Made by a program: the position numbers and the translations under genes
NCBI RefSeq assembly: GCF_001553625.1
Contig: NZ_CP014230.1
Coordinates: forward strand, 992,001 to 1,056,000
Source: Desulfomicrobium orale DSM 12838
GTDB taxonomy: Bacteria; Desulfobacterota; Desulfovibrionia; Desulfovibrionales; Desulfomicrobiaceae
Direction of reading: 5' to 3'
DNA length: 64,000 nucleotides
Shown here: piece by piece, positions 4,870-51,495 of the stretch
Layout of the letters: the number at the start of each line of letters is the position of its first letter
How positions within the stretch are numbered: the stretch's first letter is position 1
The notes under the pieces: model-generated
What the model was told of the DNA's origin: nothing
The model's database searches: none
What the model saw: only the letters and a program-made list of their open reading frames with translations

Positions 4870-5544
4870 ATGAGCGACGCCAAAAGATTCTGGATAGCCT
4901 TCGGAGATATTCACCAGCGGGTCGCCGCCGTGGACCGCGTGGAAGATCTGGCTCAGGCCAGCGGCGTGCTGCTGAACGGGGATCTGACCAATATCGGCTC
5001 GCGCGAGGACGCGATTCATGTTCTGGATGCCGTGGCGCGCAAGAATCCGCGCATTTTCGCCCAGGTGGGCAACATGGACACGGCTCTGGTGGAGCGGGTG
5101 CTGACGGAGCGTGAAGTCAATGTCCACGCCCGCGTGACGGATCTTGGCGGCGGAGTCGGCCTTGCCGCCGTGGGCCGCTCCACGCCCACGCCCTTCGGCA
5201 CGCCCTCGGAAGAGAGCGAGGAACAGATCTGCCAGTGGGTGCACGGGGTGCTCAAGGAGGCGGCGGGCTTTGCCCAGGTCATCCTCATGGTCCACACGCC
5301 GCCCAAAGGCGAAGTGGTGGACAGGCTTTTTTCCGGCGGCCATGTGGGCAGCCCCGGCATCCGCGCCCTTATCGAACGCTATCAGCCCGCCGTGGTGGTC
5401 ACGGGGCACATTCACGAGGGCTTCGGCGAGGAGATGATCGGCCGTTCCCATGTGCTCAATCCGGGCAGCTTCGCCGACGGCGGCTATGTGCGCATCGAGG
5501 AGACCGCCGCTGGTCTGGCCGCCAGCCTGAGGAAGGTGGCGTGA
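4870..5544 (+). CDS. metallophosphoesterase family protein
   Basis: A 224-residue calcineurin-like phosphoesterase. All metal-ligand blocks are present in order: GDIHQR (residue 11), GDLTNIG (about 38), GNMD (about 66), VHTPPKG (about 143) and GHIHEG (about 183). These form a dinuclear metal centre that hydrolyses phosphoester bonds. The YfcE/MJ0936-like size suggests a small cytoplasmic phosphodiesterase, but the substrate cannot be predicted. The ATG at 4870 is preceded by AGGGTAGGTGG. Its stop overlaps the GTG start of xthA. Confidence 0.82.
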   Translation: MSDAKRFWIAFGDIHQRVAAVDRVEDLAQASGVLLNGDLTNIGSREDAIHVLDAVARKNPRIFAQVGNMDTALVERVLTEREVNVHARVTDLGGGVGLAAVGRSTPTPFGTPSEESEEQICQWVHGVLKEAAGFAQVILMVHTPPKGEVVDRLFSGGHVGSPGIRALIERYQPAVVVTGHIHEGFGEEMIGRSHVLNPGSFADGGYVRIEETAAGLAASLRKVA

Positions 5545-6314
5545 GCATCCGGCTTTTTTCCTGGAATGTGAATGGGTTCCGGGCAGTGCTGGGCAAGGGT
5601 TTCGGCGACTGGCTCGCCGGAGCGGCTCCGGATGTGCTCGGTTTGCAGGAGGTGAAGGCGGAGGAAGGGCAGATCGGCGAGGCCCGGCATTTTCCGGGGT
5701 ATGCCTGCGTCTGGAACGCCGCCAGAACCAAAAAGGGCTATTCCGGCACGGCCTGCTACACCCGTCATGAACCCCTGGCCGTACATCGCGGCCTGCCCGA
5801 CGAGCGCTACCGGGGGGAAGGACGGGTCATCCGTCTGGAGTTCGAGCACTTCCATTTTTTCAACATCTATTTTCCCAACGGCCAGATGAGCCAGAACCGG
5901 CTGGACTTCAAGATGGGCTTTTACGACGCCTTCCTGGCCCACGCCGAGGATCTGCGCCGGAGCAAGCCCATCGTGGTCTGCGGGGATTTCAACACCGCCC
6001 ACCGCGAGATCGACCTCAAAAATCCCAAGGCCAACGAAAACACTTCCGGCTTCCTGCCGGTGGAACGGGCCTGGATGGACCGCTTCATCGGACACGGCTA
6101 CGTGGATACCTTCCGCCATTGCCGAGGCGACGTGACCGGAGCCTATTCCTGGTGGAGCTACAGGCACGGCGCTCGCTCGCGCAATGCCGGATGGCGCATC
6201 GACTATTTTTTCGTGTCCGAGGAACTGCGCCCTCTGATCACGGACGCCTGGATCGACGCCGATGTCCAGGGTTCCGACCACTGCCCGGTGGGTCTTGAAC
6301 TGGACCTGCCGTGA
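5541..6314 (+). CDS. xthA: exodeoxyribonuclease III
   Basis: The 257-residue AP endonuclease/3'-exonuclease of base-excision repair belongs to the EEP superfamily. Landmarks are LFSWNVNGFRA (residue 4), LQEVKAEEG with the metal-binding glutamate (about 35), CGDFNTAH (about 145), RIDYFFVSEEL (about 219) and the catalytic GSDHCPV near the end. Translation starts at a GTG that overlaps the previous stop (GTGA). Upstream in-frame sequence lies inside the phosphoesterase gene and is not family-like. It overlaps rtcB by 4 bp. Confidence 0.92.
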   Translation: MSIRLFSWNVNGFRAVLGKGFGDWLAGAAPDVLGLQEVKAEEGQIGEARHFPGYACVWNAARTKKGYSGTACYTRHEPLAVHRGLPDERYRGEGRVIRLEFEHFHFFNIYFPNGQMSQNRLDFKMGFYDAFLAHAEDLRRSKPIVVCGDFNTAHREIDLKNPKANENTSGFLPVERAWMDRFIGHGYVDTFRHCRGDVTGAYSWWSYRHGARSRNAGWRIDYFFVSEELRPLITDAWIDADVQGSDHCPVGLELDLP

Positions 6315-37107: not shown

Positions 37108-37968
37108 TTAGCCCTTGATATAAGCGAAAGCGTTATGGGCATGGATGGATTCGTGGCTTTCCACTCTGACATGAAACGAGGAAACAAGCGGATGCACTGT
37201 AAGTGAAGCCGCAACACAACGAGCCACATCTTCCACAAAGCAGGGATGCGCGAAGGCGTACTCTGTTACAAATTTTTCATCCGCACGCTTGAGTAGACTA
37301 TACACAGGTGAAGAACCGGCCTCTTCCGCCAGTTCGATCAAATCTTCTATCCAGATATAGCCGCTCATGCGGGACGAAATATGTATCTCGGCTCGCTGGC
37401 TGTGCGCACCTTCATCGCTGATGGCCTTGGAACAGGGGCAGACCGTCATCACAGGCACGGTCACGGCAAGAGTGAAAGGGGCAAAGGAGCTTGTTTCCCG
37501 GCTTGTCTCGTCTATTTCACCCGAAAGGGTACAATGGTATGTCATTGTCGTCCGGATGCCCGATACCGGTGTGGTACGGACCAGAAAATAGGGGAAGGAA
37601 AAAGCTAGGTAGGCACGGTCTGCTTTGAGGCGTGCACAGGTTTCTCGCATCAGGCGCAGGGCCAGTGGGTAATCAAGTGTCGACGTCTCACCGCCAGATC
37701 TACGCAACATTCCCTGCAGGGTCTCCACAAAGCGGCTCATATGGGTACCCTTGGCTTCTGCCGGGAGATCCACGCTAAGGGTAATTTCGGCCACTGTGCA
37801 CTGGGCTTCAACATAGTCGCGCTGTCTAACCAGAATGGGCATGGTCATGTTGCGAATACCAACGCGATTGATGTGCAGTGGAATGCTAGGGGCTTGGCTC
37901 TGCACGTCAGCCAGAGGAGGAAGCTGCTGCTTTTGGCTCTGCAATGGCACGGAAGAGGGGGCGTCCAT
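37108..37968 (-). CDS. folE2: GTP cyclohydrolase FolE2 (type IB)
   Basis: Makes 7,8-dihydroneopterin triphosphate from GTP, the entry step to folate (and queuosine). The 286 residues show LADVQSQAPSIPLHINRVGI at the start and the catalytic VPVMTVCPCSKAISDEGAHS (about 184-205) with the active cysteine and histidine. HPCFVEDV near 240 completes the site. This form does not need zinc. The start is uncertain: the ATG at 37968 lacks a good ribosome site, and a TTG nine codons earlier is possible. It is the last gene of the leftward transporter-panB operon, which ties it to folate supply. Confidence 0.85.
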   Translation of the reverse strand: MDAPSSVPLQSQKQQLPPLADVQSQAPSIPLHINRVGIRNMTMPILVRQRDYVEAQCTVAEITLSVDLPAEAKGTHMSRFVETLQGMLRRSGGETSTLDYPLALRLMRETCARLKADRAYLAFSFPYFLVRTTPVSGIRTTMTYHCTLSGEIDETSRETSSFAPFTLAVTVPVMTVCPCSKAISDEGAHSQRAEIHISSRMSGYIWIEDLIELAEEAGSSPVYSLLKRADEKFVTEYAFAHPCFVEDVARCVAASLTVHPLVSSFHVRVESHESIHAHNAFAYIKG

Positions 37969-38021
37969 GGAAAATGTATGGGGCGGCTGCCTCAATGACT
38001 GACAACCACCCCATGAAATTA

Positions 38022-38897
38022 TTATTTGTTCCAGTCCATGGCCTTCTTAAATTCTGCAAGCACTTCCGGCTTCATGAAAACTGTATGCTCGGGGCCGGGG
38101 TAGGTATGGTTCTGCACATCGTCCATGTATTCCTTGTAGACACGCTCCATGATGGGGATGAGATCTTCGTAGATCTTGGAGTGACGTGGAACGTGCGGTT
38201 CATAAAGGTGGAAGAGGTCGGAGCCGATGATATGAACACCGTCGGCCTTGTTGCCCGACCCTAGGCTGATGACTGGTATGGGCAAAGTCTCGGTGAGATA
38301 TTCACAAACTTCCGAGGTGCAGACCTCGCACATGATGGAGAAGCAGCCCGCATCCACCATGGCCAGGGCGTCGTCGATGAGTTCCTTGGCGCGGTCGACG
38401 GTTTTGCCCTGCGCGGTGAAGCCGCCCAGCTGGGGCATGCGCATAGGCGTAATGCCAATGTGTCCCTGCACGGGGATGCCCGCCTTGACGATGGCTTCGA
38501 TATTCTTGCAATGGTGCTGATTGCCCTCACATTTCATCACTTCGGCATTGGCGCGGTGCACAAACTGGGCAGCGTTGTCCACAGCCTGCTGGGGAGACAG
38601 ATGGAAGCTCATATAGGGCATGTCCACCATGCGTAGCCCATACTGTGAACCGCGATCCACGGCTTGGGCCATGAGCATGACTTCCTCGAAAGTCACGGCC
38701 GTGGTGTTGGGATGGCCAAAAAGCACCATGCCACCCGTATCGGAAACGCACAGGATATCTACGCCAAGCCTGTCGGCCACGCGGGCGTTGGCGTAATCGT
38801 AGACGGCCAGCTGGGTAATCTGTTCACCCTTGAGCTTTTTCTGGAACAGTTGGGGAATGGTGACCTTCTTGCGCTTGATAGAGGTGGCTTCAGACAT
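38022..38897 (-). CDS. ketopantoate hydroxymethyltransferase (PanB) homologue
   Basis: PanB transfers the methylene group of 5,10-methylene-THF to an alpha-keto acid (or releases it in reverse). The 291 residues follow PanB and keep its metal and catalytic residues: the aspartate in CVSDTGG (about 51), the aspartate in MVDMPYM, the lysine and glutamate in VMKCEGN (about 118), the histidine in QGHIGITP, and the glutamate of CEVCT. The substrate loops differ (T for S after the first aspartate, GNQHHCKN). AAGGAG precedes the ATG. No panC or panD is nearby; ABC transporter, folE2, folD and fhs are. A specialised one-carbon exchange on an imported keto acid is more likely than pantothenate synthesis. 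Confidence 0.78.
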   Translation of the reverse strand: MSEATSIKRKKVTIPQLFQKKLKGEQITQLAVYDYANARVADRLGVDILCVSDTGGMVLFGHPNTTAVTFEEVMLMAQAVDRGSQYGLRMVDMPYMSFHLSPQQAVDNAAQFVHRANAEVMKCEGNQHHCKNIEAIVKAGIPVQGHIGITPMRMPQLGGFTAQGKTVDRAKELIDDALAMVDAGCFSIMCEVCTSEVCEYLTETLPIPVISLGSGNKADGVHIIGSDLFHLYEPHVPRHSKIYEDLIPIMERVYKEYMDDVQNHTYPGPEHTVFMKPEVLAEFKKAMDWNK

Positions 38898-38955: not shown

Positions 38956-39825
38956 TCAATTGGCCGGGCCATTCTGGGTACTGTCTTCGTTCTGCTGCTG
39001 GTGTTCGTAGGCCTCAAGGAAGTCTTGTACGGCCCGACTGCCGCTACTGAAAGCCTTGAGGGCCTCCTCATGGAGGGTCTCAAGCGCTTCGCGTTTGTAT
39101 TCCTGACAGTTGCGATTGAGCAGCATCTCTTTCTTGCGAGGACGTGGCAGGGCTATGTCCATGATATGCACGATGCGCCCGGGCTGGTTGCTCATGATCA
39201 GGATGCGGTCAGCCATAAAAATGGCTTCATCGATTTCGGAGGTGATGAAGAATACCGTACCCTGTCGCTCTTCCAGCAATGAGCAGAAATATTCCTGCAT
39301 CAGTTCGCGCGTCATGGCGTCCAACCCGCGGAAGGGCTCATCCAAGATCATCACTTGCGGGTTGTTCACCAGCATCCGGGCCAGTTCGCCACGCCGCTGC
39401 ATACCGCCGGAAAGGTGGGAGGGGTATTTGTGCCCAAACTCTTGCAAGCCCACTTTTTCCAGCATGGCTTCCACCATAGCTCTAATTTCCTGATTGTTAC
39501 CGGTCTTCTTGGCGCGCGGGCCAAAGGCCACATTGGAGTAGGTCGTCATCCAGGGAAAGAGGGCTGTTTCCTGAAAGACCACCAGCCTGTCTCCGCCGGG
39601 CCCTTTGACCTGCCTGCCACCCATCAGGATGCGGCCCGCATCGGGTTCTTCATAGCCTGCCAGCAGATTAACCAGTGTGCTCTTGCCGCAGCCGGAAGGG
39701 CCAATCAGTACTGTTATTTTGTGCTCTTCCAGTACGAAGGAGCAATCTTTTAAGGTTTGCTTTTCTGTATAGCCAAATCCATAGTATTTGGTGACGCCCT
39801 CAATGACCATTTCGTCTTTTTTCAT
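38956..39825 (-). CDS. NitT/TauT-type ABC transporter ATP-binding protein (second copy)
   Basis: A 289-residue ATPase, with Walker A GPSGCGKSTLVNLLAG (about 42), signature LSGGMQRRGELARM (about 148) and Walker B VMILDEPFRGLD (about 170). The GxPFRGLDAMTRELMQ pattern is typical of the SsuB/TauB/NrtD group. The long C-terminal tail (about 260-289) is glutamine and asparagine rich and unusual. The start was set at MKKDEMVIEG, with AAGAGAA upstream. It pairs with the permease at 39855-40646. It differs from the other ATPase of the operon in its signature (LSGGM here, LSSGM there). Confidence 0.88.
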   Translation of the reverse strand: MKKDEMVIEGVTKYYGFGYTEKQTLKDCSFVLEEHKITVLIGPSGCGKSTLVNLLAGYEEPDAGRILMGGRQVKGPGGDRLVVFQETALFPWMTTYSNVAFGPRAKKTGNNQEIRAMVEAMLEKVGLQEFGHKYPSHLSGGMQRRGELARMLVNNPQVMILDEPFRGLDAMTRELMQEYFCSLLEERQGTVFFITSEIDEAIFMADRILIMSNQPGRIVHIMDIALPRPRKKEMLLNRNCQEYKREALETLHEEALKAFSSGSRAVQDFLEAYEHQQQNEDSTQNGPAN

Positions 39826-39854
39826 TTCTCTTGCCACTGAAGTCTTCCTTATTT

Positions 39855-40646
39855 TTAGAACGTGCGCCGCCAGGGCATACACCAGTCGCCCAGCATACGA
39901 ATGCAGGAGCTGGAGATGTAGCCCGCTATGCCGATGCTGACCATGCCGATGACGATTTGCGGATAATTGCCACCCACATAGGAGGACCAAGTCAGATAGC
40001 CCAGACCCGACCTTCCGGCCAGCATTTCGGCGGCCACCACCACTTCCCAGGTGATGCCCATACCTACGGTCATGCCAGTGAAAATGCTGGGCAAGGTGGC
40101 CGGCAAGATGATCTTGCAGAAGATGTCCCAGTTACGTGCGCCCAGCGAGATGGCGGCGCGGCCAAGGCGCACATCTACATTGCGCGCGCCGCCCAGCACA
40201 TTGATGACCACGGTATAGAAGGCTCCGAGGAAAATGACGAAGGTGATGCTCATCTCCGTGGTCGGCCAGAACAGGATGGAAATAGGGACCCAGGCCAGTG
40301 GCGGGATGGGCCGCAGGATTTCGAAGGGAGGGAAGGCCAGACCGAAGATGATGCGGCTGGAAGCCATGGCCAGGCCCAGCGGAATGCCCACCACCTGCGC
40401 CAACAGAAAGCCTTTGAGCACACGGGCAAAGCTGCTACCCCAGTCACCCCAGTAGGAGGCGGCGAAGATGAGGTCAAAGAAGACCCCTATGACTTCCGAG
40501 GGAGCGGGCAAAGCCTGCAACATGGGTAGTTTGTAGGCCCGGCCAAGCTCCCAAAGCAGACCCGCCAAAATGATGGAGGTGGCTCCGCGTCGGAATTTAG
40601 GGCTCTTGATCTGTTCGAGTACGGGTATCTTGCGGTTCTTGCTCAT
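39855..40646 (-). CDS. NitT/TauT-type ABC transporter permease (second copy)
   Basis: A 263-residue inner-membrane permease with about six helices. The EAA loop near 115-160 holds PPFEILRPIPPLAWVPISILF, the classic SsuC/TauC coupling motif, and GARNWDIFCKIILPATLPSI is the cytoplasmic docking segment. It lies 29 bp upstream of its ATPase and 11 bp downstream of the other ATPase gene. Substrates of this family include sulfonates, nitrate, thiamine precursors and other small anions; the ligand here is unknown. Confidence 0.88.
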   Translation of the reverse strand: MSKNRKIPVLEQIKSPKFRRGATSIILAGLLWELGRAYKLPMLQALPAPSEVIGVFFDLIFAASYWGDWGSSFARVLKGFLLAQVVGIPLGLAMASSRIIFGLAFPPFEILRPIPPLAWVPISILFWPTTEMSITFVIFLGAFYTVVINVLGGARNVDVRLGRAAISLGARNWDIFCKIILPATLPSIFTGMTVGMGITWEVVVAAEMLAGRSGLGYLTWSSYVGGNYPQIVIGMVSIGIAGYISSSCIRMLGDWCMPWRRTF

Positions 40647-40657
40647 CCGATACCTCC

Positions 40658-41485
40658 CTAGGCAAGTTCACGTTCGCCACTTTCAAAGGCTTTTCTGGCT
40701 TCTTCGTGTACAGCCTCCACTACAAGGTTCTTGAGTTCGAAGTAGCGTTCGGAGGTGCGCACCTTGAAGTCGCGTGGGCGGGGGATATCCACATCGATCA
40801 TCTGCTTCACCCGGCAGGGGCGCGTGGTCATGATGACCACCTTATTACCCAGGAGGATGGCTTCTTCCAAATCGTGAGTGATGAAAAAGATGGTTTTACA
40901 GACCCGGTCATAGACCCGTAGGAGGAATTCGTGCATGATGCCTTTGGTCATGGCGTCCATGGCGCGAAAGGGTTCGTCCAGCAGGAGTACCTTGGGGTCA
41001 TTCATCAGGGCGCGGGCAATCTCGACCCGTCGTCGCATGCCCGAGGAAAGCGAATCCGGGTAGTTGTTGATTGTGTCTTGCAAGCCTAACTCGTTCAAAA
41101 GCTCAAGGGCGCGTTTGCTGGCCGATGCTTCGCTTTCACCCTGTACCACAGGGCCAAACATGGTGTTTTCGAGCACAGTGTACCAAGGGAAGAGTGCGCC
41201 GTTTTGAAAAACCACCACGCGGTCGGCTCCAGGCGGGGTAAGCATCTCTGGGCTGCACAGGAGTTTGTCGTCCAAATATATTTCGCCGCCGGTGATGCCG
41301 TGAAAACCGGCAATGGCATTGAGTAGCGTGGTTTTGCCGCAGCCCGACGGTCCCACCACCATACAGAATTCACCTGCTTCCAGTTCCAGAGAGCAATCGT
41401 CTACGGCACAGATGTTGAGGCCGTCGGGGTCATAGACCTTGCTGGCGTGACGGATGCTGATCTTACCTTCTTTTGCGGTATTCAT
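40658..41485 (-). CDS. NitT/TauT-type ABC transporter ATP-binding protein (first copy)
   Basis: A 275-residue ATPase: Walker A GPSGCGKTTLLNAIAG (about 42), signature LSSGMRRRVEIARAL (about 150) with a serine in place of the usual glycine, and Walker B VLLLDEPFRAMDAMTKG (about 173). The C-terminal tail contains a short coupling region. It lies 3 bp from the upstream permease and 11 bp from the downstream one, so two full permease/ATPase pairs alternate in this operon. Confidence 0.88.
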   Translation of the reverse strand: MNTAKEGKISIRHASKVYDPDGLNICAVDDCSLELEAGEFCMVVGPSGCGKTTLLNAIAGFHGITGGEIYLDDKLLCSPEMLTPPGADRVVVFQNGALFPWYTVLENTMFGPVVQGESEASASKRALELLNELGLQDTINNYPDSLSSGMRRRVEIARALMNDPKVLLLDEPFRAMDAMTKGIMHEFLLRVYDRVCKTIFFITHDLEEAILLGNKVVIMTTRPCRVKQMIDVDIPRPRDFKVRTSERYFELKNLVVEAVHEEARKAFESGERELA

Positions 41486-41488
41486 GCC

Positions 41489-42355
41489 TTACCTCACCGT
41501 CCAGCGCATGAGCTGATTGCCTGCAATACGGATCAGGGCGCTGCAGAAATAGCCGATGAGTCCCAGCGTCATCATGCCGATGACAATGACCGGGTACTGA
41601 CTGAGAACGTATGAATCCCAGATGAGATAGCCTAGGCCGTATTCGCCGGAGAGCATCTCCGCTGCCACCAGAGAGAACCAAGCCACGCCCATGCTGATTT
41701 GTAGACCCGTAAAGATGAAGGGCAAGGCTCCCGGTACCACTACTCGGCGAAAGACATCCCTGGGCTTGGCACCCAAACAGCGGGCCGCGCGGAAATAAGC
41801 TTCATCAATGGAGTCAACGCCTAGCAGAGTGTTGAGCACCGTGGCGAAAAATGACGCTAGGCAGGCCAAAAAGATAATAGGGGTTTCGCGTCCAGTGAAC
41901 ATCAGGATGGCCAGCGGAACCCAGGCTAGAGTGGGGATGGGCCGCAGCAGCTCCAACGGGGGAAAAGCGTAATCGCGTATTTTGCGGTTCCAGCCCATGA
42001 AGAGTCCCAACGGTACACCAAGGCAGGTGGCGATGGTGAAGGCCGCCAGGATGCGCAGACAGCTCCACATGATGTGCTGATAGAAATGCGAAGTGAAGAG
42101 ACTCGTGCCGTACACCGGGTCGGTAGAAATGAACTCTGTCCAGCAGATGACGGGACCTGGCAATTTCTCGAAAAGCGGCACTTTGAGATATTCGGTCAGT
42201 AGCCACCAAAGCAGCACGACGCCTACAATGCCTGCCGCACCCATGCTCAGGCGGGAGCGCATCTCCCTGTCAGAAAGATTATGTCGGATGATCTCACCCA
42301 GGCTGTGTTTCTGCGCTTGCGGGGGGGGACTAGCAGAAATTTTGTTGGTAGGCAT
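41489..42355 (-). CDS. NitT/TauT-type ABC transporter permease (first copy)
   Basis: A 288-residue permease with an N-terminal helix near 40-58 and about five further helices. The EAA region contains PPLELLRPIPTLAWVPLAILM (about 130) and GAKPRDVFRRVVVPGALPFI (about 190). It is preceded by the substrate-binding protein and followed closely by its ATPase. It resembles the second permease in layout but is clearly different in sequence. That suggests divergent duplication or a heterodimeric channel. Confidence 0.88.
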   Translation of the reverse strand: MPTNKISASPPPQAQKHSLGEIIRHNLSDREMRSRLSMGAAGIVGVVLLWWLLTEYLKVPLFEKLPGPVICWTEFISTDPVYGTSLFTSHFYQHIMWSCLRILAAFTIATCLGVPLGLFMGWNRKIRDYAFPPLELLRPIPTLAWVPLAILMFTGRETPIIFLACLASFFATVLNTLLGVDSIDEAYFRAARCLGAKPRDVFRRVVVPGALPFIFTGLQISMGVAWFSLVAAEMLSGEYGLGYLIWDSYVLSQYPVIVIGMMTLGLIGYFCSALIRIAGNQLMRWTVR

Positions 42356-42433
42356 CTGGCGTGTACCTCCTGCGCTTGAGGTGCCGGGTGTGGCAGCGGG
42401 GCAGGAAACCCCGCCGCCACACGGTGGACGGGA

Positions 42434-43543
42434 CTACTTCTTGGGCCCGTCGTAGATATTTTTGGGGATGATCACTCCCATCGGGGTGGTCACATTCATT
42501 TCAGCGGCCACCGCGCGGGCGATGGAATCGTCGATGGCACCTTCGGGAGCTTTCCCCACGTTGATGACCTTGGTTTCGTGCAGGAATGTATAGGTAGAAT
42601 CCAAGAGCTCATGCACGGGCTTGGTGAAGACAAAGGGCTTGGTATCGCGTTCGGGCGCGCCGCCACATTCGGTGGGAATGGCACCGTACAGCGAGAACCA
42701 GCTCATCAACGGGGTGAGGCCGGTGGCCTGCTTGGCAACGATGTTGCCCACTTCTTCCCAGTTGGCCGGATCCATCAGGAAGCGTTGGGCCTCTAGTTCG
42801 GCCTTCAGCCAGCCTTTGGCGATTTCGGGATACTGCTTCACAAAATCGGCGCGCATGGCGATGAAGCCCGCATCAGGGGTGTTGTAGTTGTAGCCGGTGG
42901 CCACAACGCGGGCGACACCTTCACCGGCTAGGTCGCCGATGCGACTGACGGTAGGCTCCCACAGCACGGCGGCGTCAATCTTCTTGACGCGGAAGTTGGT
43001 GGCGATGACTTCCAACGACTGATTCAAAATCTGCTTGGGCTTGATGCCGGTCTTCTGCATGACGGTACGCAGGAAGCGTTCGGCACAGCTACCTTTGGGG
43101 GTGGCCACGGTCTTGCCGTCAAGCCACCTTACGGCTTCTTCAGGGCTGGTGAACTTGGGTGCGTCGGGGCGCACCATAATGACGTTGCAGCGCTGTCCGG
43201 CAGAAAGACCCAGACTGGCCACCAGCTTGATGGGGGCGATGTTGGTCTTGGTGGTACAGACCACGGCGGGCATGTCACCTAAGTAGCCGATGACCTGCTT
43301 GCCGGCTACCATGGAATTCACGATGATAGAACCTTGGAGGGCCCCTTCAAATTGCACTTCGGTGCCCGCAGGCAGGTATTTTTTCCACAGTTCCTTGTCA
43401 CGGATGACAGCGGCGGAATAAGAAATGGTGTCATAGGGCTGGTAGCCTACCACGATCTTTTCCGCTGCCGAAGCATTGGGAGTTGTCAGCATAGGGGGAA
43501 AAACCAGAGCCAGGGCCAAGGTGAGAAGATGAAGCAGTTTCAT
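42434..43543 (-). CDS. NitT/TauT-type ABC transporter substrate-binding protein
   Basis: A 369-residue periplasmic binding protein with a Sec signal (MKLLHLLTLALALVFPPMLT, cleaved near ASA-AE). The mature N-terminus is KIVVGYQPYDTISYSA. VRWLDGKTVATPKGSCAERF near 139 resembles the ligand-gating segment of SsuA/ThiY-type proteins. A cysteine pair (CNVIM, SCAERF) could form a disulfide. It is the only binding protein in the operon and must serve both permease pairs. The ligand is unknown. Confidence 0.85.
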   Translation of the reverse strand: MKLLHLLTLALALVFPPMLTTPNASAAEKIVVGYQPYDTISYSAAVIRDKELWKKYLPAGTEVQFEGALQGSIIVNSMVAGKQVIGYLGDMPAVVCTTKTNIAPIKLVASLGLSAGQRCNVIMVRPDAPKFTSPEEAVRWLDGKTVATPKGSCAERFLRTVMQKTGIKPKQILNQSLEVIATNFRVKKIDAAVLWEPTVSRIGDLAGEGVARVVATGYNYNTPDAGFIAMRADFVKQYPEIAKGWLKAELEAQRFLMDPANWEEVGNIVAKQATGLTPLMSWFSLYGAIPTECGGAPERDTKPFVFTKPVHELLDSTYTFLHETKVINVGKAPEGAIDDSIARAVAAEMNVTTPMGVIIPKNIYDGPKK

Positions 43544-43794: not shown

Positions 43795-44625
43795 TCAGGG
43801 GATGTCCTGCCCATAGGCAAGGGCATAGGCCCCGGCTACGAAAATGGCTCCTCCCACGATATTGCCCAGGGTGACGAAACACATGTTCCGAGTTAAAGCC
43901 ATGACGCCGAGGGCTTCGACTATACCGGGCTCAAGGCCTGAGGCCGCCAGCGTGGGTGGGTCCAGCACGGCCAGCAGGCCCGCGCTCAAATAATACATAT
44001 TGGCTACTGAATGTTCGTAGCCACTGGTCACGAAAAGCCAGATGGGGAAAAAGAGCAGAAAAGCCTTGTGTGCCGCCTTTTCAGAACGAGAGGCCAGCCA
44101 TATCGCCAAGCATACCAGCCAGTTGCAGAAGATGCCCAGGATGAGGGCCTCCAGCCCCCCAAGCTTAGCCTTATCCACGGCTGTTTTGATGATGGCCGTC
44201 GCTACCTGCCCTTTGCCGGAGACGAACAGACCTGAAAGGAAGAGGAGCCCGGCCACAAGTACGGCCCCTGTAAAGTTTCCCAGATAGACCAGCAACCAGT
44301 TGCGTAACATGTCGACGGGGTTGAGCAGCTTGCGCCGCACGGCCTCCGTCATCATGCAGTTACCGGTAAACAATTCCCCTCCTCCCACGATGATGAGTAT
44401 AAGCCCCACCGGGAAGAGCAGTCCTGCCACGCACCGTCCGAGACCGTAGCTATCGGGCGAGGCGAGCAGATTACAGGCCGCTACAGTAGAAGCAAAACCC
44501 GCAAGGGCAATATAAGCCCCACCCAGCATGGCCAAAAGCCATATCCGAGTTGTGGGCAGGAGCGCCTTGGCTTGCATGGTTTTCCCCAGGCGTTCAAGGC
44601 TGATGGCAAGAGGCGGTGTGGCCAT
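43795..44625 (-). CDS. focA: formate/nitrite transporter (FocA/NirC) family channel
   Basis: A 276-residue pentameric channel protein with about six helices. Family markers are LAMLGGAYIALAGFASTVA near 29, the repeated GGGELFTGNCMM (about 80) and SGYEHSVANMYYLSAGLLA (about 200). These are the two half-helix motifs whose histidine and surrounding residues gate formate. GGAGGG precedes the ATG, and the first 32 bases lie inside the end of folD. Being beside fhs and folD, it most likely moves formate for the one-carbon system. Confidence 0.88.
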   Translation of the reverse strand: MATPPLAISLERLGKTMQAKALLPTTRIWLLAMLGGAYIALAGFASTVAACNLLASPDSYGLGRCVAGLLFPVGLILIIVGGGELFTGNCMMTEAVRRKLLNPVDMLRNWLLVYLGNFTGAVLVAGLLFLSGLFVSGKGQVATAIIKTAVDKAKLGGLEALILGIFCNWLVCLAIWLASRSEKAAHKAFLLFFPIWLFVTSGYEHSVANMYYLSAGLLAVLDPPTLAASGLEPGIVEALGVMALTRNMCFVTLGNIVGGAIFVAGAYALAYGQDIP

Positions 44626-45520
44626 CTTGACCCTCCAGATGCTTCCAGGCTGAGCGCATGGTGTTCTTCATGAGCATGGCGATGGTCATGGGGCCTACTC
44701 CACCGGGTACAGGAGTTATCTTGCCTGCTACGGCCGAGGCCGCCTCGAAGTCCACATCGCCAGAAAGGACGGCCTTGCCGGTCTTTTGGTTGAAGCCCAG
44801 CCGGTTTACGCCCACGTCGATGACTGTGGCTCCGGGTTTGATCCAGTCCGGTCTGACTAATCCCGCCGACCCGGCGGCCACAATGAGCACATCGGCCCGG
44901 CGGCAATGCGAGGCCAAATCCTTGGTGCCGGTGTGAGTCAAGGTTACAGTGGCGTTGCCTCCGCGTCCCTTATGCCCCAGCATCACGGCAATGGGCCTGC
45001 CCACGATGTTGGAGCGGCCTACCACCACTACTTCGGCTCCATTCAGCTGCACTCCCGTGCGTATCAGTATTTCTTGGATACCTGCCGGGGTGCAAGGCAA
45101 AAAGGTCACAGCCTCGCCACCGATGAACAGTCTGCCCAGATTCATAGGGTGGAAGCCATCCACGTCCTTGTCAGGATCAATAGCCAGAAGCACCCGCCTC
45201 TCATCAATATGCTTGGGCAGGGGCAGCTGGACCAGGATGCCGTGGATGGCAGGGTCGGCATTGTAGTGCTCGATGAGCGCCAATAGATCTGCCTCGCTAA
45301 TGTCGGCTGGACGGTTGTCTTGCACTTCATGGAAGCCCAGAGAATGCGCGGTCTTGACCTTGCGGCTCACATAGCTGGCCGAAGCCGGGTTGTCCCCCAC
45401 AAGGATAGTCACCAAGCCTGGGGCTTGGCCATGCTTGGCTCGCATCTGGGCAACTTCGACTCGCAGCTCTTCTAATATGTTTTGACTGAGTGCCAGACCA
45501 TCGATGATCGTCGCTGTCAT
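44594..45520 (-). CDS. folD: methylene-THF dehydrogenase / methenyl-THF cyclohydrolase
   Basis: Interconverts 5,10-methylene-THF, methenyl-THF and 10-formyl-THF with NADP. The 308-residue protein has SYVSRKVKTAHSLGF (about 48, with the catalytic lysine), ILVQLPLPKHIDE and DVDGFHPMNLGRL (about 120). The nucleotide loop is VVVGRSNIVGRPIA (about 165) and the C-terminus has ITPVPGGVGPMTIAMLMKNT. It begins at 45520 with AGGAGAGG upstream, 11 bp after fhs. The last ten codons overlap focA. This may be a second copy, since a housekeeping folD would normally sit in the core genome. Confidence 0.94.
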   Translation of the reverse strand: MTATIIDGLALSQNILEELRVEVAQMRAKHGQAPGLVTILVGDNPASASYVSRKVKTAHSLGFHEVQDNRPADISEADLLALIEHYNADPAIHGILVQLPLPKHIDERRVLLAIDPDKDVDGFHPMNLGRLFIGGEAVTFLPCTPAGIQEILIRTGVQLNGAEVVVVGRSNIVGRPIAVMLGHKGRGGNATVTLTHTGTKDLASHCRRADVLIVAAGSAGLVRPDWIKPGATVIDVGVNRLGFNQKTGKAVLSGDVDFEAASAVAGKITPVPGGVGPMTIAMLMKNTMRSAWKHLEGQDGHTASCHQP

Positions 45521-45531
45521 CTCTTCCTCTC

Positions 45532-47304
45532 CTAGAAGATACCGCTGACGCGGCCGGTTTCGGTGTCCACATCCACCCGCCGGAAAGAGGGATTGGAACC
45601 TGTGCCTGGCATTAGGCTGATACTGCCCGCCACAGGCACCACGAAGCCCGCGCCGCCGTAAATAAGCACGTCGCGCACATGCAGGCGCCAATCCTCAGGC
45701 ACGCCTTTACGGCTGGGATCGTCGGATAGGGAGAGATGGGTCTTGACCATGCAGAGACCGAGTTTCATGGCGTCGTCGCGTTTTTGGATGCTCGTAAGCT
45801 TTTTTTCAGCCTCGGCACTGAAGTCTACCCCATTGGCCCCGTAGATTTCGCGGGCTACCAATTCGATGCGTTCCTTGAAGGGCATCTCCCAGTCGTAGAG
45901 CGGGACAAACTTGGTCTTCTCGGCGCAGGCGTCGACGACAGCCTCGGCTAGTTCCAGTGCGCCCTCGCCACCGTGCTCCCAGTGGGTGGAAAGCGCCACC
46001 CGCGCACCTTCGGCTTCGCAGAGTTCGCGGATTTTAACTATTTCGGCTTTAGTATCGGTGACGAAGGCATTGATGCAGACCACCGGCGATACGCCGGATT
46101 TCTTCACTGTGCGGATGTGATGTAGAAGGTTACAGCAACCTTTTTCCACAAAGCCCACATGTTCCTTGGAATATTCCGATGGTAGCGGACGGCCGGGTAC
46201 GGGTAGGGGGGCGCCGCCGTGGCTTTTCAGCGCGCGTACTGTGGTCACGATAACGGCGGCATCTGGAGTGAGCCCGCTGTAATGGCATTTAAGGTTCCAG
46301 AATTTCTCGTAACCAATGTCCGCCCCAAAGCCAGATTCAGTCACATGATATTCGCTGAGCTTCAGCCCGATACGGTCCGCGATGACCGAGCTCTGACCAA
46401 TGGCGATATTAGCGAAAGGGCCGGCATGTACGAAGACCGGCTGGCCTTCGATAGTCTGGATGATGTTGGGGTTGATGGCCTCCATCATCCAGGCGGTCAT
46501 AGCGCCATCCACTTCCAAGTCGGCGGTGGTGACGGGTTTGCCGTCGCGATCATAGGCCACGATAATTTTTCCCATGCGACGGCGCATGTCGGCCAAGTCC
46601 TTAACGATGGCCAAGATGGCCATGACTTCGCTCGAAACGGCGATATCAAAGCGCGAACGCATCATAAAGCCGTCACTCTTGCCGTTGATACCGTCGATGC
46701 CGATAATGACGTTACGCAGGGCTTGGCAGCAGAAGTCGATGACCCAGCCCATGTTGACATTGGCGGGGTCGATGTTCAGGCGCGGCATTTTGGAAAGAGA
46801 CAGCAATTTTTCATCATTGTAGTTGCGTTCATGCTGCATGCGTGAGGTCAGGGCTACCATGGCCAGATTGTGAGCATTCATGACGGCGTTGATGTCGCCG
46901 GTAAAACCCAGAGAATACTGGGTGAGCGGGATGCACTGGGAAAGGCCACCGCCTGCGGCCGAGCCCTTGACGCCCATGGTGGGGCCACCCGAAGGCTGCC
47001 GGATGGCGGCGCTAGAGCGCTTGCCCCGCCGTCCTAAGCCCTGCACAAGACCGATGGTAGTCGTGGATTTACCCTCGCCAAGGGGGGTAGGGGTGATGGC
47101 GGTCACATCCACGTATTTGCCGTTGGGTCGGTCACCTAGCCGATCCAGCACAGCGCGGAAATCCACCTTGCCCATATAGTGACCGTAGGGCAGGAGCTCG
47201 TTTTTTTCCAAGCCCAGAACTTCGGCGATGTGGTGGATAGTTTTCATGTTTTTTTCAGCTTCCCAGGCTATTTCCCAGTCGGCATGTTTTTTGGGATCGA
47301 GCAT
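45532..47304 (-). CDS. fhs: formate-tetrahydrofolate ligase
   Basis: ATP + formate + THF gives 10-formyl-THF; in reverse it yields ATP and formate. The 590-residue protein starts [19 protein letters not shown]. The ATP site is [20 protein letters not shown] (about 72), and [21 protein letters not shown] with [10 protein letters not shown] follows. The C-terminus ([20 protein letters not shown]) is complete. AAGGAGACATC precedes the ATG. It leads the leftward fhs-folD-focA unit. Its upstream region is shared with the divergent sensor operon and carries NarL-type heptamers. Confidence 0.95.
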
Positions 47305-47511: not shown

Positions 47512-47580
47512 AGCATCTTGAGCAAAAGCGTGCTTGATTATAGATACTTCCTGCTTGCGGAATCTATGGGGCATAAGCAT

Positions 47581-48564
47581 ATGACTATAAGATTTGCGCA
47601 TAAGATTGCTTTTTTTCGCCTTGCAGCGTTGTCCGTCGGTTTGGCGATGCTGCCTCTCTATCTGCTCTGGCCTGTTTCACCTGCTCCCCCCACCGATGCC
47701 GAGATCAACCTGCCCACCTATGGTTCCGCTCCCCCTCTGCGGCAGGAACTGCCCATCTACCGCTTTGCTGTACATCCTCTGCACAATCCTCAGCGACTCT
47801 TTGTCAACTTCCAACCCATCATTGATATCATCAACCGCGAAGCCAAGGACTTCAGCGTACGCCTCATTGCTGCACGCGATTACCAAAGTTTTGAGAAGCG
47901 GATCCTCATGCAGGAATTCGACCTGATTCTGGGTAATCCGCTCCAAACTGTCTGGAGCCTCGGATACGGCTACCGAGTGGTTGGCAAGATGGGTGATGAC
48001 GATCGCTTCTACGGTATCATCATCGCTCGTGATGACTTTGTCCCGACCAACGCTGCCGCCCTTGTCGGCTACAACATGGTTTTCCCTGCACCCACAGCTC
48101 TTGCCGCCACCTTAATGCCTAGACTCTATCTGCATGAACAGGGGGCTGATTTCTCTCAGATAAACATCATCTACAGTGGCTCGCAGGAGTCCGCCATCAT
48201 GAATGTCTATCTGGGCAAGGCCGATCTGGCTGGCACTTGGCCCATGCCTTGGGAGCTTTTCCTCAAGGAACGACCAGAGCTGGGTCGCAGGCTACATGTG
48301 GTTTGGCGTACGCCTCCGCTTGTCAACAACGGTATCGCTATCCGTACCAGCATGCCCGAAGCGCATGTACAGCACATTATGAATATCCTGTTGGGTCTTC
48401 CGGCCTCGCCGGAAGGGCGCGCCATCCTGCAACGCCTGTCCATCTCGGGTTTTAAAGCCAGTAATAACGACGATTATGTAAAGCCGGTACGAAATTTCAT
48501 GGAGTGCTATCGCAAGGCCTTCCCCAATGAGGAGCAGTATCTGGATGAACGCCAGCAGTCCTGA
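47581..48564 (+). CDS. PhnD-like periplasmic binding protein (sensor partner)
   Basis: A 327-residue exported or membrane-anchored binding protein of the PhnD/TAXI type. A hydrophobic N-terminus ([19 protein letters not shown]) is followed by [26 protein letters not shown] and [24 protein letters not shown], the usual first lobe of phosphonate-type binding proteins. No transporter genes accompany it. It is followed by a kinase and a regulator, so it probably delivers the signal ligand to the kinase. The start is uncertain: an ATG 15 bases upstream is also possible. It overlaps the kinase gene by 20 bp. Confidence 0.75.
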
Positions 48565-50020
48565 CCAGCCCTACTCCATCAGTATCAGGAACAAGCTTAT
48601 CCTCAGCATGACGCTTGTGCATTTGGTGCTCATGGGCTTTTTTGTGGGCGATACCTTTTTCAGGCAGCGGGAATTTCTGTTACATGAAGATCGCAGCTCT
48701 GCGCTCAATTTTGCCAGCCTCATGGCCGAGAACGTGCTTTCCTGGGTGCTGGCAGAAGACTTGATGGGTATGGATGAAGTTTTGCAGGCCAGTGCTCAGC
48801 TGACTAAGGCCGGTTATGCCTGTGTGATAGACACCTCGGGCCAAGTGCTGGCCCATACCGAAAAAAGTCGGGTGGGGAGTTTTTTGAACGATGCCGAATC
48901 GGTTGCGTTGTTGCGCAGCTCTAAGCTGGAGGCGCACATCTGGCGCAGCGCTCCCTCCTGTACTCATGCGGCGGCTCCACTTATCACCCAGAGCAACCAT
49001 GTGGGCTGGGTATTAGTGGGCATGGACCTGCAGGGGACGGCAAGTTATCTGCGCTCATTGCGTGACAAGGGCATACTCTATACCTTAGGAGCGATGCTCA
49101 TTGGCGGCTTTACAGCGGTGCTACTTTCACGTCTCATTTTCCGCCAGTTGGATGCAATTATGGAGGGCATCAGCCGTCTCTACAGTGATACTTTTTTGCC
49201 CATTTCGGTTTTTTCGGGGGACGAGCTAGGGCATATGGCCAAGGCCCTGAATCAGGCATCGGCCTATCTGCAGACCAGCCGCAGTGAACTCAAGCGCGAA
49301 GTGGCCGAACGTATGGAAGCCGAAAAGCAGATCCGTTACCTCACTCGCCGCCTAGTGGATGGCAACGAGGAAGAGCGCAAGCGCCTCGGCCACGACCTGC
49401 ATGATGAATTTGGCCAGAGTGTGACAGGGCTACTCTTTGGTCTGCATTCACTTAAGACGATGCTCAAACGTGACGATGCCGAAGCCCTCGACCTGTGTGA
49501 GCAGATGATTGACCAAGCCAAAAGTTTTGGCGACAGCATCCGCCGTACGGCGGCTGGGCAGTTTCCGGTGGTGCTAGAGCGCCTAGGGCTGGCGACTGAG
49601 GCTCCGGCTTTGCTGGGCGAGATGGCCGAACGTCATAGTGGCATCCGACTGATCTATACAGTGGATCTGCCTGAACGACGGCTGCACCAACGTATCGAAG
49701 TGACTTGTTATCGCATCTTGCAGGAAGGGCTTTCCAATATCGTACGTCACTCTAAGGCTACAGAAGCTCGGATAGAGCTTTCCGTACGGGATGACAGGGT
49801 TTATCTGTATTTGGGCGACAATGGCAGGGGCTTTGACGCCGAAAGTCTTTTGGACCAGACCCACGAATATAGCGGCATTGGCCTTTTGGGTATGCGCGCC
49901 CGCGTGCTGGCCGTGGAAGGAGATATGAAGGTGGTTTCGCGCCCAGGCGAGGGCTGTGTCATTATCGTCTTTTTACCGCTGCTCTATCGAGATACTAGGG
50001 TGTGTTTGCAAACTTTATAA
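48545..50020 (+). CDS. sensor histidine kinase (NarX/DegS-like HisKA_3 type), IS-altered C-terminus
   Basis: A 491-residue membrane kinase: helix 1 (about 20-38), a periplasmic sensor domain, helix 2 (about 178-200), a HAMP-like segment (LFRQLDAIM to DELGHMAKAL) and a coiled coil. The HisKA_3 phosphorylation site is EEERKRLGHDLHDEFGQSVTG (about 278-298), and an HATPase with NIVRHSKATEARIELS and GLLGMRARV follows. The IS insertion at codon 484 changed the last residues to RVCLQTL. Without it the frame would read KN-stop after LLYRDT. The domain core is untouched, so the kinase is probably active. It overlaps the upstream binding protein. Confidence 0.85.
   Translation: MNASSPDQPYSISIRNKLILSMTLVHLVLMGFFVGDTFFRQREFLLHEDRSSALNFASLMAENVLSWVLAEDLMGMDEVLQASAQLTKAGYACVIDTSGQVLAHTEKSRVGSFLNDAESVALLRSSKLEAHIWRSAPSCTHAAAPLITQSNHVGWVLVGMDLQGTASYLRSLRDKGILYTLGAMLIGGFTAVLLSRLIFRQLDAIMEGISRLYSDTFLPISVFSGDELGHMAKALNQASAYLQTSRSELKREVAERMEAEKQIRYLTRRLVDGNEEERKRLGHDLHDEFGQSVTGLLFGLHSLKTMLKRDDAEALDLCEQMIDQAKSFGDSIRRTAAGQFPVVLERLGLATEAPALLGEMAERHSGIRLIYTVDLPERRLHQRIEVTCYRILQEGLSNIVRHSKATEARIELSVRDDRVYLYLGDNGRGFDAESLLDQTHEYSGIGLLGMRARVLAVEGDMKVVSRPGEGCVIIVFLPLLYRDTRVCLQTL
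49998..50014 (+). repeat. left terminal inverted repeat of the IS
   Basis: 17 bp, preceded by target TA at 49996-49997. It is a perfect match, reversed, to 50802-50818. Confidence 0.92.
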
Positions 50021-50048
50021 CCAGCGTGGTTTGGTGTAGCTTTTGGAC

Positions 50049-50803
50049 ATGTGTTATACCGATATTTCCGATGAAACCTGGCAACGGCTTGAGCCCGTTC
50101 TGCCGCTTGAGGGTTCGCCCAAAGGCGGCCGTCCGGCCAAAGATAAACGAACATTCATAAATGCAATCATCTGGCTGCTGCGCACCGGGGCTCCCTGGAG
50201 GGCCCTGCCGAAAGAGTATGGGTCATGGAATGCCGTGTATTCCCGCTTTCGGCGTTGGCAGATAAAAGGATCCTGGAAAGCAGTCTTTCTCGCTCTGGCG
50301 TCTGACCCCGATCTCGAAGCGGTGATGATTGACGGTACGTACATCCATGCCCACAAACATTCGGCTGGCGCAAAAGGGGGCAGCACAGACAAGCTCTGGG
50401 CCGCAGTCGCGGAGGTTTTACCTCCAAGCTGCATGCACAGGTAGACGCGCTCGGCAATCCTGTATCGTTTTTCCTTACAGGAGGTGAATGTGCGGATGTC
50501 AGTGTTGCGCCACAATTACTCGAAGGGGTTTGCAATTGTACTGTTATTGCCGATAAAGGTTATGACAGCGAGCCATTGGTTCAACTCCTTGAAGCAAAAG
50601 GCTGTACCGTAGTTATTCCTCCACGCTCAAATCGTAAAACACCTCGTCGGTATGATCGGCATCTTTATAAGGAACGGCACCTTGTTGAATGCTTTTTCAG
50701 TAAAATCAAAGAGTACCGCAGAGTGGCAACACGTTATGAAAAGCTTGCCCAGACTTTTCTTTCTTTCGTTTACCTGGCAGCTTCAATGATTTGGATCAAA
50801 TAG
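50049..50803 (+). CDS. IS427-type transposase (two frames, -1 frameshift)
   Basis: Reading from the ATG at 50049, the first frame encodes the N-terminal domain (MCYTDISDETWQRLEPVLPL) through MIDGTYIHAHKHSAGAKGG, where the DDE domain begins. At AAAAGGGGG (50372-50380) a -1 shift would give QHRQALGRSRGGF and then the DDE domain with VIADKGYDSEPLVQLL and a catalytic glutamate near HLVECFFSKIKEYRR, ending at 50803. In IS5-family elements this A/G-rich site directs programmed -1 frameshifting. The second frame alone would lack the start. The protein is intact if the shift works. Confidence 0.8.
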
Positions 50804-50818
50804 TTTGCAAACACACCC
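50802..50818 (-). repeat. right terminal inverted repeat of the IS
   Basis: 17 bp AGTTTGCAAACACACCC, followed by target TA at 50819-50820. Confidence 0.92.
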
Positions 50819-50847
50819 TAAAAACTGAGTGGTTGCTTGGAGGCGGT

Positions 50848-51495
50848 ATGAGCGACAGGATCCGGGTAATGATCGCCGACGATCACGCTATCGTCCGGGC
50901 AGGGGCCAGCCGTCTCATCAAGGGCGAGCCCGACATGGAAGTCGTCGGCGAGGCCTGTCACGGCGGCGAAGTACTGGAGAGAGCTCGTAAGCTGAGACCA
51001 CATGTGCTGGTACTGGATATTTCTATGCCGGGTATCTCGGGCATTGAACTTGTACCGGAGCTGCGTCGTCTTCTGCCAACCATGCAGATTGTGCTCTTTT
51101 CCATGCACAGACGCGAGGTGCTCTTGCAGCAGGCGCTTAGAGAGGGCGTGCGGGGCTATGTGCTCAAGGCCTCGGCTGTAGAAGATATTCTCTCGGCCAT
51201 CAGGGCCGTGCATAAGGGGCAGTACTTTCTGAGCCCTGAAATTGAGACCGACATGATCAGCGGCTATCTCGGCCGAGGTCAAGGCAAGGAATGTGACGGC
51301 CTATCCGAGCGGGAGCTGGAGGTCCTGATCATGGTTGCATCCGGCCTGACCACCAAGCAGATAGCCAAAAAGCTTTTCCTCAGCCCCCGCACGGTGGAAA
51401 AGCACCGCGCCTCTTTCATGCAGAAGCTACACCTCAAAAATATTTATGAGCTTATCCAGTATGCCCTGCAGAAGGGTCTTATATTACATTCGTGA
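50848..51495 (+). CDS. NarL/FixJ-type response regulator
   Basis: A 215-residue regulator. The receiver has MIADDHAIVRAG (phosphoacceptor pocket) and VLVLDISMPGISG with the phosphorylated aspartate (about 55). The LuxR helix-turn-helix reads LSERELEVLIMVASGLTTKQ and IAKKLFLSPRTVEKHR (about 150-185). GGAGGCGG precedes the ATG. It follows the kinase in the original operon, and an IS now separates them by 821 bases. Its expression therefore depends on read-through or on a promoter inside the IS. It is the likely regulator of the two folate/ABC operons. Confidence 0.9.
   Translation: MSDRIRVMIADDHAIVRAGASRLIKGEPDMEVVGEACHGGEVLERARKLRPHVLVLDISMPGISGIELVPELRRLLPTMQIVLFSMHRREVLLQQALREGVRGYVLKASAVEDILSAIRAVHKGQYFLSPEIETDMISGYLGRGQGKECDGLSERELEVLIMVASGLTTKQIAKKLFLSPRTVEKHRASFMQKLHLKNIYELIQYALQKGLILHS

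Follow-up and report, generated by a model that had tools for sequence, protein, structure and literature searches.

A PanB-like protein of Desulfomicrobium orale as a candidate hydroxymethyltransferase of C1-sulfonate breakdown

Introduction

In this study we examine a gene at 38022-38897 (minus strand) of a 64,000-nucleotide stretch of the Desulfomicrobium orale DSM 12838 genome, called the window below. Its product has the fold and the catalytic residues of the ketopantoate hydroxymethyltransferase PanB, and its context of sulfonate and folate genes is well supported. At the level of the pathway, we are quite confident that the protein belongs to one that joins a C1 sulfonate and tetrahydrofolate (THF). 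The reaction that we propose, with somewhat less than even confidence, is the transfer of the hydroxymethyl group of hydroxymethanesulfonate (HMS, HOCH2SO3-) to THF, which would give 5,10-methylene-THF and sulfite.

In the sulfur cycle, methanesulfonate (MSA) is abundant. The oxygenases that attack it are expected to yield HMS first, and HMS also forms spontaneously as an adduct when formaldehyde meets sulfite. A paralogue of PanB whose gene accompanies that of the MSA monooxygenase component MsmA is a direct and testable candidate for the C1 step of MSA breakdown. If the proposal is true, many genes annotated as '3-methyl-2-oxobutanoate hydroxymethyltransferase' do not belong to vitamin synthesis, and anaerobes could draw carbon, energy and sulfite from HMS.

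Identity and Fold

The open reading frame runs from an ATG at 38897, with AAAGGAG upstream of it, to a stop ending at 38022, and encodes 291 amino acids. By sequence and by fold the product is a member of the PanB family (EC 2.1.2.11), which it also resembles in length. It matches PF02548 with 271.5 bits (cut-off 28.7) and exceeds the PanB equivalog model TIGR00222 by about one bit (208.8 against 207.55), while it stays below the cut-off of the subfamily model NF001452 (249.6 against 272). The structure prediction suggested in the initial annotation resulted in an AlphaFold2 model with a pLDDT of 84.3, in which the TIM-barrel fold of PanB is present. The best match is 1oy0, with a Z of 30.1 and an rmsd of 1.8 Å over 247 residues, and the second solved PanB, 1m3u, gives a Z of 26.9. 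The next-best structural families, of the isocitrate lyase/PEP mutase kind, are found at a Z of about 18, well under the PanBs.

Elsewhere in the genome of the window, a single contig of 2.78 Mb, a canonical PanB (382 bits) is encoded, with panC beside it. This canonical PanB shares 47% identity with E. coli PanB; the PanB-like protein is 30% identical to the former and 31% to the latter. PF02548 matches were found in all 48 carrier genomes searched, and most of these have at least one extra canonical-scoring copy. No pan genes adjoin the PanB-like gene in the window, and none occur in the orthologous loci, where the neighbours are sulfonate and THF genes. Because a canonical panB-panC pair is present elsewhere in the genome, and most carriers likewise have a canonical copy, a role in pantothenate synthesis is very unlikely. 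A second ketopantoate hydroxymethyltransferase for the synthesis of vitamin B5 and CoA would agree with the PanB fold and with the passing of PF02548 and, by one bit, of TIGR00222. However, the panB-panC pair in the same genome, the loci devoid of pan genes, the missed NF001452 cut-off and the 15 fixed site differences described below make this alternative barely credible, and the first and the last of these are our grounds for discarding the pantothenate isozyme.

Residues of the Active Site

For the residue comparison, 74 members of the PanB-like clade were aligned with 48 canonical PanBs, and the numbering of E. coli PanB (1m3u) is used throughout. Y25, D45, D84, K112, E114, H136 and E181 are invariant in 74/74 clade members and in 48/48 canonical PanBs. 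We take the last six to be the metal ligands and catalytic residues of the E. coli enzyme. The conserved catalysis noted in the initial annotation thus holds across the whole clade.

The substrate loops, which had been described as altered (CVSDTGG, GNQHHCKN and GHPNTTAVTF), do differ from those of canonical PanB, and the analysis of specificity-determining positions that had been recommended was carried out. Counting a position as fixed differently when at least 90% of the clade has one residue and at least 90% of the canonical PanBs another, we find 15 such positions, 11 of them at 100%, but none at all when the canonical set is split at random or by taxonomy. The changes include T23A, L42C, G44S, G116N, Q142M, G201S, I202L, Q211V, L213I, V214I and F229H; L42, G44, G201, I202, Q211, L213, V214, F229 and others that are fixed in canonical PanBs have all been replaced in the clade. 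S46T is nearly fixed, and position 212 is always His, as compared to Ile or Val in canonical PanB. Residues 42, 46, 202, 212 and 214 presumably line the keto-acid pocket in the E. coli structure, and several of the fixed changes (L42C, G44S, I202L and V214I, together with His212) are probably located there. Judged from the alignment, catalysis appears to have been kept in the clade and the substrate side rebuilt. The additional cysteines that had been noticed are in part a property of the clade, namely C50, C123 and C185 (74/74) and C190 (60/74), while C130, C193 and C198 are confined to the window protein or to subgroups.

Two further groups of relatives were seen. A sister subfamily (L133:1706-2545, minus strand, and L136:3990-4829, plus strand; support for the grouping 0.999) keeps K112, E114, H136 and E181 and has lost the metal aspartates, D45 being replaced by Asn and D84 by His. 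One of its members lies about 15 kb from MsmA and the other adjoins a sulfonate-type binding protein. In a divergent PF02548 group of carrier genomes (L134:2399-3187 and L135:4063-4842, both minus strand), E181 is changed to Thr, E114 to Asp and H136 to Gln.

Orthologous Loci and Methanesulfonate Genes

Orthologues that are 69-81% identical to the window protein were found in 75 loci, mostly of beta-, gamma- and alphaproteobacteria, with a few of actinobacteria. All open reading frames of these loci were clustered, and the neighbours could then be counted. The most frequent are a TauE/SafE exporter (52 loci), genes of nitrate/sulfonate-type ABC transporters (48) and a GcvT-like protein (39), followed by the Rieske oxygenase set with MsmA (33), LysR (29), FolD (15), SoxC (14) and Fhs (10). 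The surroundings are those of MSA degradation and comprise msmABCD, genes of sulfonate ABC transporters, TauE/SafE, SoxCD, GcvT-like protein, FolD and Fhs. In 27 of the 33 cases, those with an intact motif region, the Rieske alpha subunit shows the CXH-X26-CXXH motif, whose spacer has been reported to be specific to the MSA monooxygenase MsmA (PMC4433239).

The proven MSA degrader Filomicrobium strain Y provides a comparison. The 20.3-kb msm segment given in Table 1 of the same paper contains LysR, TauE/SafE, GcvT, a '3-methyl-2-oxobutanoate hydroxymethyltransferase', SoxC, SoxD, ABC and msm transport genes, and the PanB-annotated ORF was labelled only 'C1-moiety transfer' (PMC4433239, 2015). 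The gene order of one clade locus (L076) is the same as in this segment, and it is by this order that we assign the Filomicrobium ORF to the clade. Filomicrobium Y is an aerobic MSA degrader with MsmABCD, whereas no MsmA was found in the genome of the window.

Where no MsmA was visible near the PanB-like gene, the whole genome was searched at a threshold of at least 50% identity. MsmA was found in 29/40 further carriers, in some as fragments and in several on the contig of the PanB-like gene. Overall, 62/73 assessable carrier genomes have MsmA and in 11/73 none was found, some of these genomes being incomplete. The link was also seen in 250 genomes sampled evenly from the betaproteobacterial order of a Polynucleobacter genome (G082), in which the PanB-like gene occurs in 6 and MsmA-like proteins in 10, with all six carriers among the ten (Fisher p 6.6e-10). 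In two of the four genomes with MsmA only, the contig is cut short, inside a PanB-like gene in one (L138) and inside msmD in the other (L137); the p value was left uncorrected for the former and is in this respect conservative.

In the actinobacterial carriers without MsmA (L042:3347-4447, L089:6332-7441, and L092), an amidohydrolase-fold protein and Rieske proteins are encoded near the PanB-like gene. The best PDB match of the amidohydrolase-fold protein is 8sm9, and it is also related to PtmU3 (6omp). These proteins may represent a different oxygenase that serves this pathway. TauE- and GcvT-like genes are also near the PanB-like gene in L042.

The Island in the Window

The PanB-like gene lies in an island from about 37.1 to 51.5 kb, in which the third-position GC is 0.57-0.77, mostly 0.60-0.72, as compared to 0.73-0.81 in the flanking genes. 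The minus-strand genes run from Fhs to FolE2. The latter, a GTP cyclohydrolase of folate synthesis identified by profile search (37108..37995), has, at 0.57, a lower third-position GC than any other gene measured and is probably part of the island. Beyond the PanB-like gene are found an ABC transporter ATPase of nitrate/taurine type (38956..39825), a permease of SsuC/TauC/NtrB type (39855..40646), a second ATPase, of taurine/nitrate type (40658..41485), a second permease, of SsuC/TauC type (41489..42355), and a periplasmic binding protein of the SsuA/TauA family, NMT1-like (42434..43543). Together they form a sulfonate-type ABC importer (38956-43543), although its SsuA-family and TauC/NtrB-type matches are all below the equivalog cut-offs. 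The binding protein is 48% identical to those of the MSA-type loci. Next come a FocA-type formate/nitrite channel (43795..44577), identified by profile search and without a counterpart in 15 other genomes of the genus, and the THF-linked C1 genes at 44594-47304, namely FolD, the methylene-THF dehydrogenase/cyclohydrolase (44594..45520), and Fhs, the formate-THF ligase (45532..47304).

Divergent from these, on the plus strand, are the genes of a PhnD-type periplasmic binding protein (47518..48564), a sensor histidine kinase with sCache and HisKA_3 domains (48527..50020) and a LuxR-type response regulator (50791..51495). A contig of a metagenome-assembled genome labelled Desulfobacteraceae (L026) has, in the order of the window, the PhnD-type protein, the kinase, the binding protein, permease, ATPase, permease, ATPase and the PanB-like protein. 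The identities to the window are 51% for the PhnD-type protein, 41% for the kinase, 70% for the binding protein, 71% for the permease at 39855..40646 and 66% for the ATPase at 38956..39825, and no THF genes were found near the PanB-like gene on this contig. The genes at 47518-51495, some of which have counterparts in L026, probably encode a sensor dedicated to the imported substrate.

Elsewhere in the genome of the window, dsrA is present (604 bits). There is a single GcvT, canonical-scoring and at another place, which rules out a GcvT-like partner gene. No formaldehyde-activating enzyme Fae was found in this genome.

Proposed Reaction and Alternatives

The substrate of the PanB-like enzyme is one that we infer from the gene company. 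The initial annotation had expected a changed keto acid or another nucleophile, and the second of these guesses fares better than the first, since a C1 sulfonate and sulfite are what the neighbouring genes indicate. We propose that a metal-dependent hydroxymethyltransferase with the PanB fold may have been turned from synthesis to breakdown. HMS, the presumed substrate, would chelate the metal through its hydroxyl and one sulfonate oxygen, much like a 2-oxo acid, and its C1 unit would pass to THF with sulfite as the putative leaving group. In the aerobic carriers, MsmABCD would hydroxylate MSA to HMS, and the sulfite from the splitting of HMS would be exported by TauE/SafE or oxidised by SoxCD.

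In the DsrAB-bearing bacterium of the window, HMS itself would instead be imported by the sulfonate-type transporter; we favour direct uptake because nothing was found in the genome to make HMS from MSA. The methylene-THF would be converted via FolD and Fhs to formate, which would yield ATP and reducing power; the formate would leave by the FocA channel and the sulfite would feed DsrAB. Such an O2-independent C1-sulfonate route, in which the carbon supplies electrons and ATP and the sulfite serves as electron acceptor, is conceivable, but we hold it with considerable reserve. Against the proposed reaction, it should be noted that Fhs and FolD, which are found in only part of the loci, may also run reductively, that L026 has no THF genes near its PanB-like gene, and that no MsmA was found in 11/73 carriers.

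For the flavin enzyme MsuD, an MSA oxygenase, a 1-hydroxyalkanesulfonate intermediate has been proposed, and hydroxymethanesulfonic acid may decompose without an enzyme (PMC8234197). The condensation of free formaldehyde with THF is far too slow for growth (PMC7073904). Transfer from HMS to THF by a PanB-derived enzyme would solve both this problem and the handling of HMS. On the other hand, HMS itself was not seen in any record, which counts against this reading. Among the papers listed in our search, none was relevant to the degradation of HMS or to the use of MSA by sulfate reducers, though this does not prove that no such work exists.

One alternative is that the protein is a formaldehyde-activating enzyme, which would condense free formaldehyde from the decay of HMS with THF to methylene-THF and would not handle the sulfonate. 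The gene company is the same, and free formaldehyde fits the aerobic loci equally well as HMS does. The slowness of the spontaneous condensation also speaks for it, and PanB has been weighed as a candidate side catalyst (PMC7073904); M. tuberculosis PanB is reported to use formaldehyde in a reaction that needs no THF (Sugantino 2003, as cited in PMC7770189). The proposed function would be analogous to that of Fae (PF08714), which attaches a C1 unit to a pterin cofactor and is absent from most carriers, being found in 8/50 carrier genomes searched; this absence speaks for the transfer from HMS as well. Fae occurs in 2/4 genomes that have MsmA and no PanB-like gene, four genomes being too few to judge. 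Fae belongs to an unrelated family and is tetrahydromethanopterin-linked. However, a formaldehyde-activating enzyme leaves unexplained why the window has a sulfonate-type importer and no formaldehyde-making enzyme. The GcvT-like protein that many loci encode could also load THF in place of the PanB-like enzyme, which weighs against this function and against the transfer from HMS alike. GcvT and the THF aminomethyltransferases of the DMSP demethylase type also capture C1 units from small substrates onto THF, although their fold is unrelated to that of the PanB-like protein. We consider the formaldehyde-activating function unlikely, but to be taken seriously.

The same chemistry might also act on another imported hydroxymethyl compound or sulfonate, in which case the enzyme would have a different activity in the MSA loci. 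The identity of just 48% between the binding protein of the window and those of the MSA-type loci would be consistent with this, as would the existence of carriers without MsmA, among them the actinobacteria that have the amidohydrolase-fold protein instead. The enzymes themselves are nevertheless 69-81% identical and share all of the site changes, which argues for one common substrate, and TauE- and GcvT-like genes are still present in actinobacterial loci. This option is quite unlikely in our view.

Finally, a C1 assimilation aldolase would use formaldehyde or methylene-THF to hydroxymethylate a 2-oxo acid, for instance pyruvate, and direct the resulting 2-oxo acid to biomass. PanB itself natively works in this direction, and the residues that chelate the 2-oxo acid are kept. 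However, the loci have no conserved downstream transaminase or reductase, the company in the window (FolD, Fhs, FocA and the importer) is dissimilatory, and there are fixed changes at positions that presumably face the side chain of the keto acid. We judge the aldolase decidedly unlikely, and prefer the transfer from HMS to THF.

Origin of the Gene

In the phylogenetic tree, the PanB-like protein of L026 is the sister of that of the window (support 0.97), and the two are placed inside a mostly betaproteobacterial group (support 0.99). The simplest history is a transfer, without the oxygenase, from a lineage of MSA degraders. In the bacterial family of the window no close orthologue was found, the best match being 37% identical, and among 395 sampled genomes of the phylum there is none except in the window's own genome. 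Together with the 30% identity to the host's canonical PanB, this rules out a recent duplication of the host panB.

Matches in plasmid records are all below 60% identity, and those among the matches listed are annotated panB; matches in annotated phage records are likewise all below 60%. A viral contig of 141.7 kb (IMG/VR 3300010885_039075, L144) has a member of the PanB-like clade at 4986-5861, 71-75% identical and with the same motifs. Its neighbours are phage-type genes (dCMP deaminase, exonuclease and QueD-like), and the phage may carry the PanB-like gene as an auxiliary metabolic gene.
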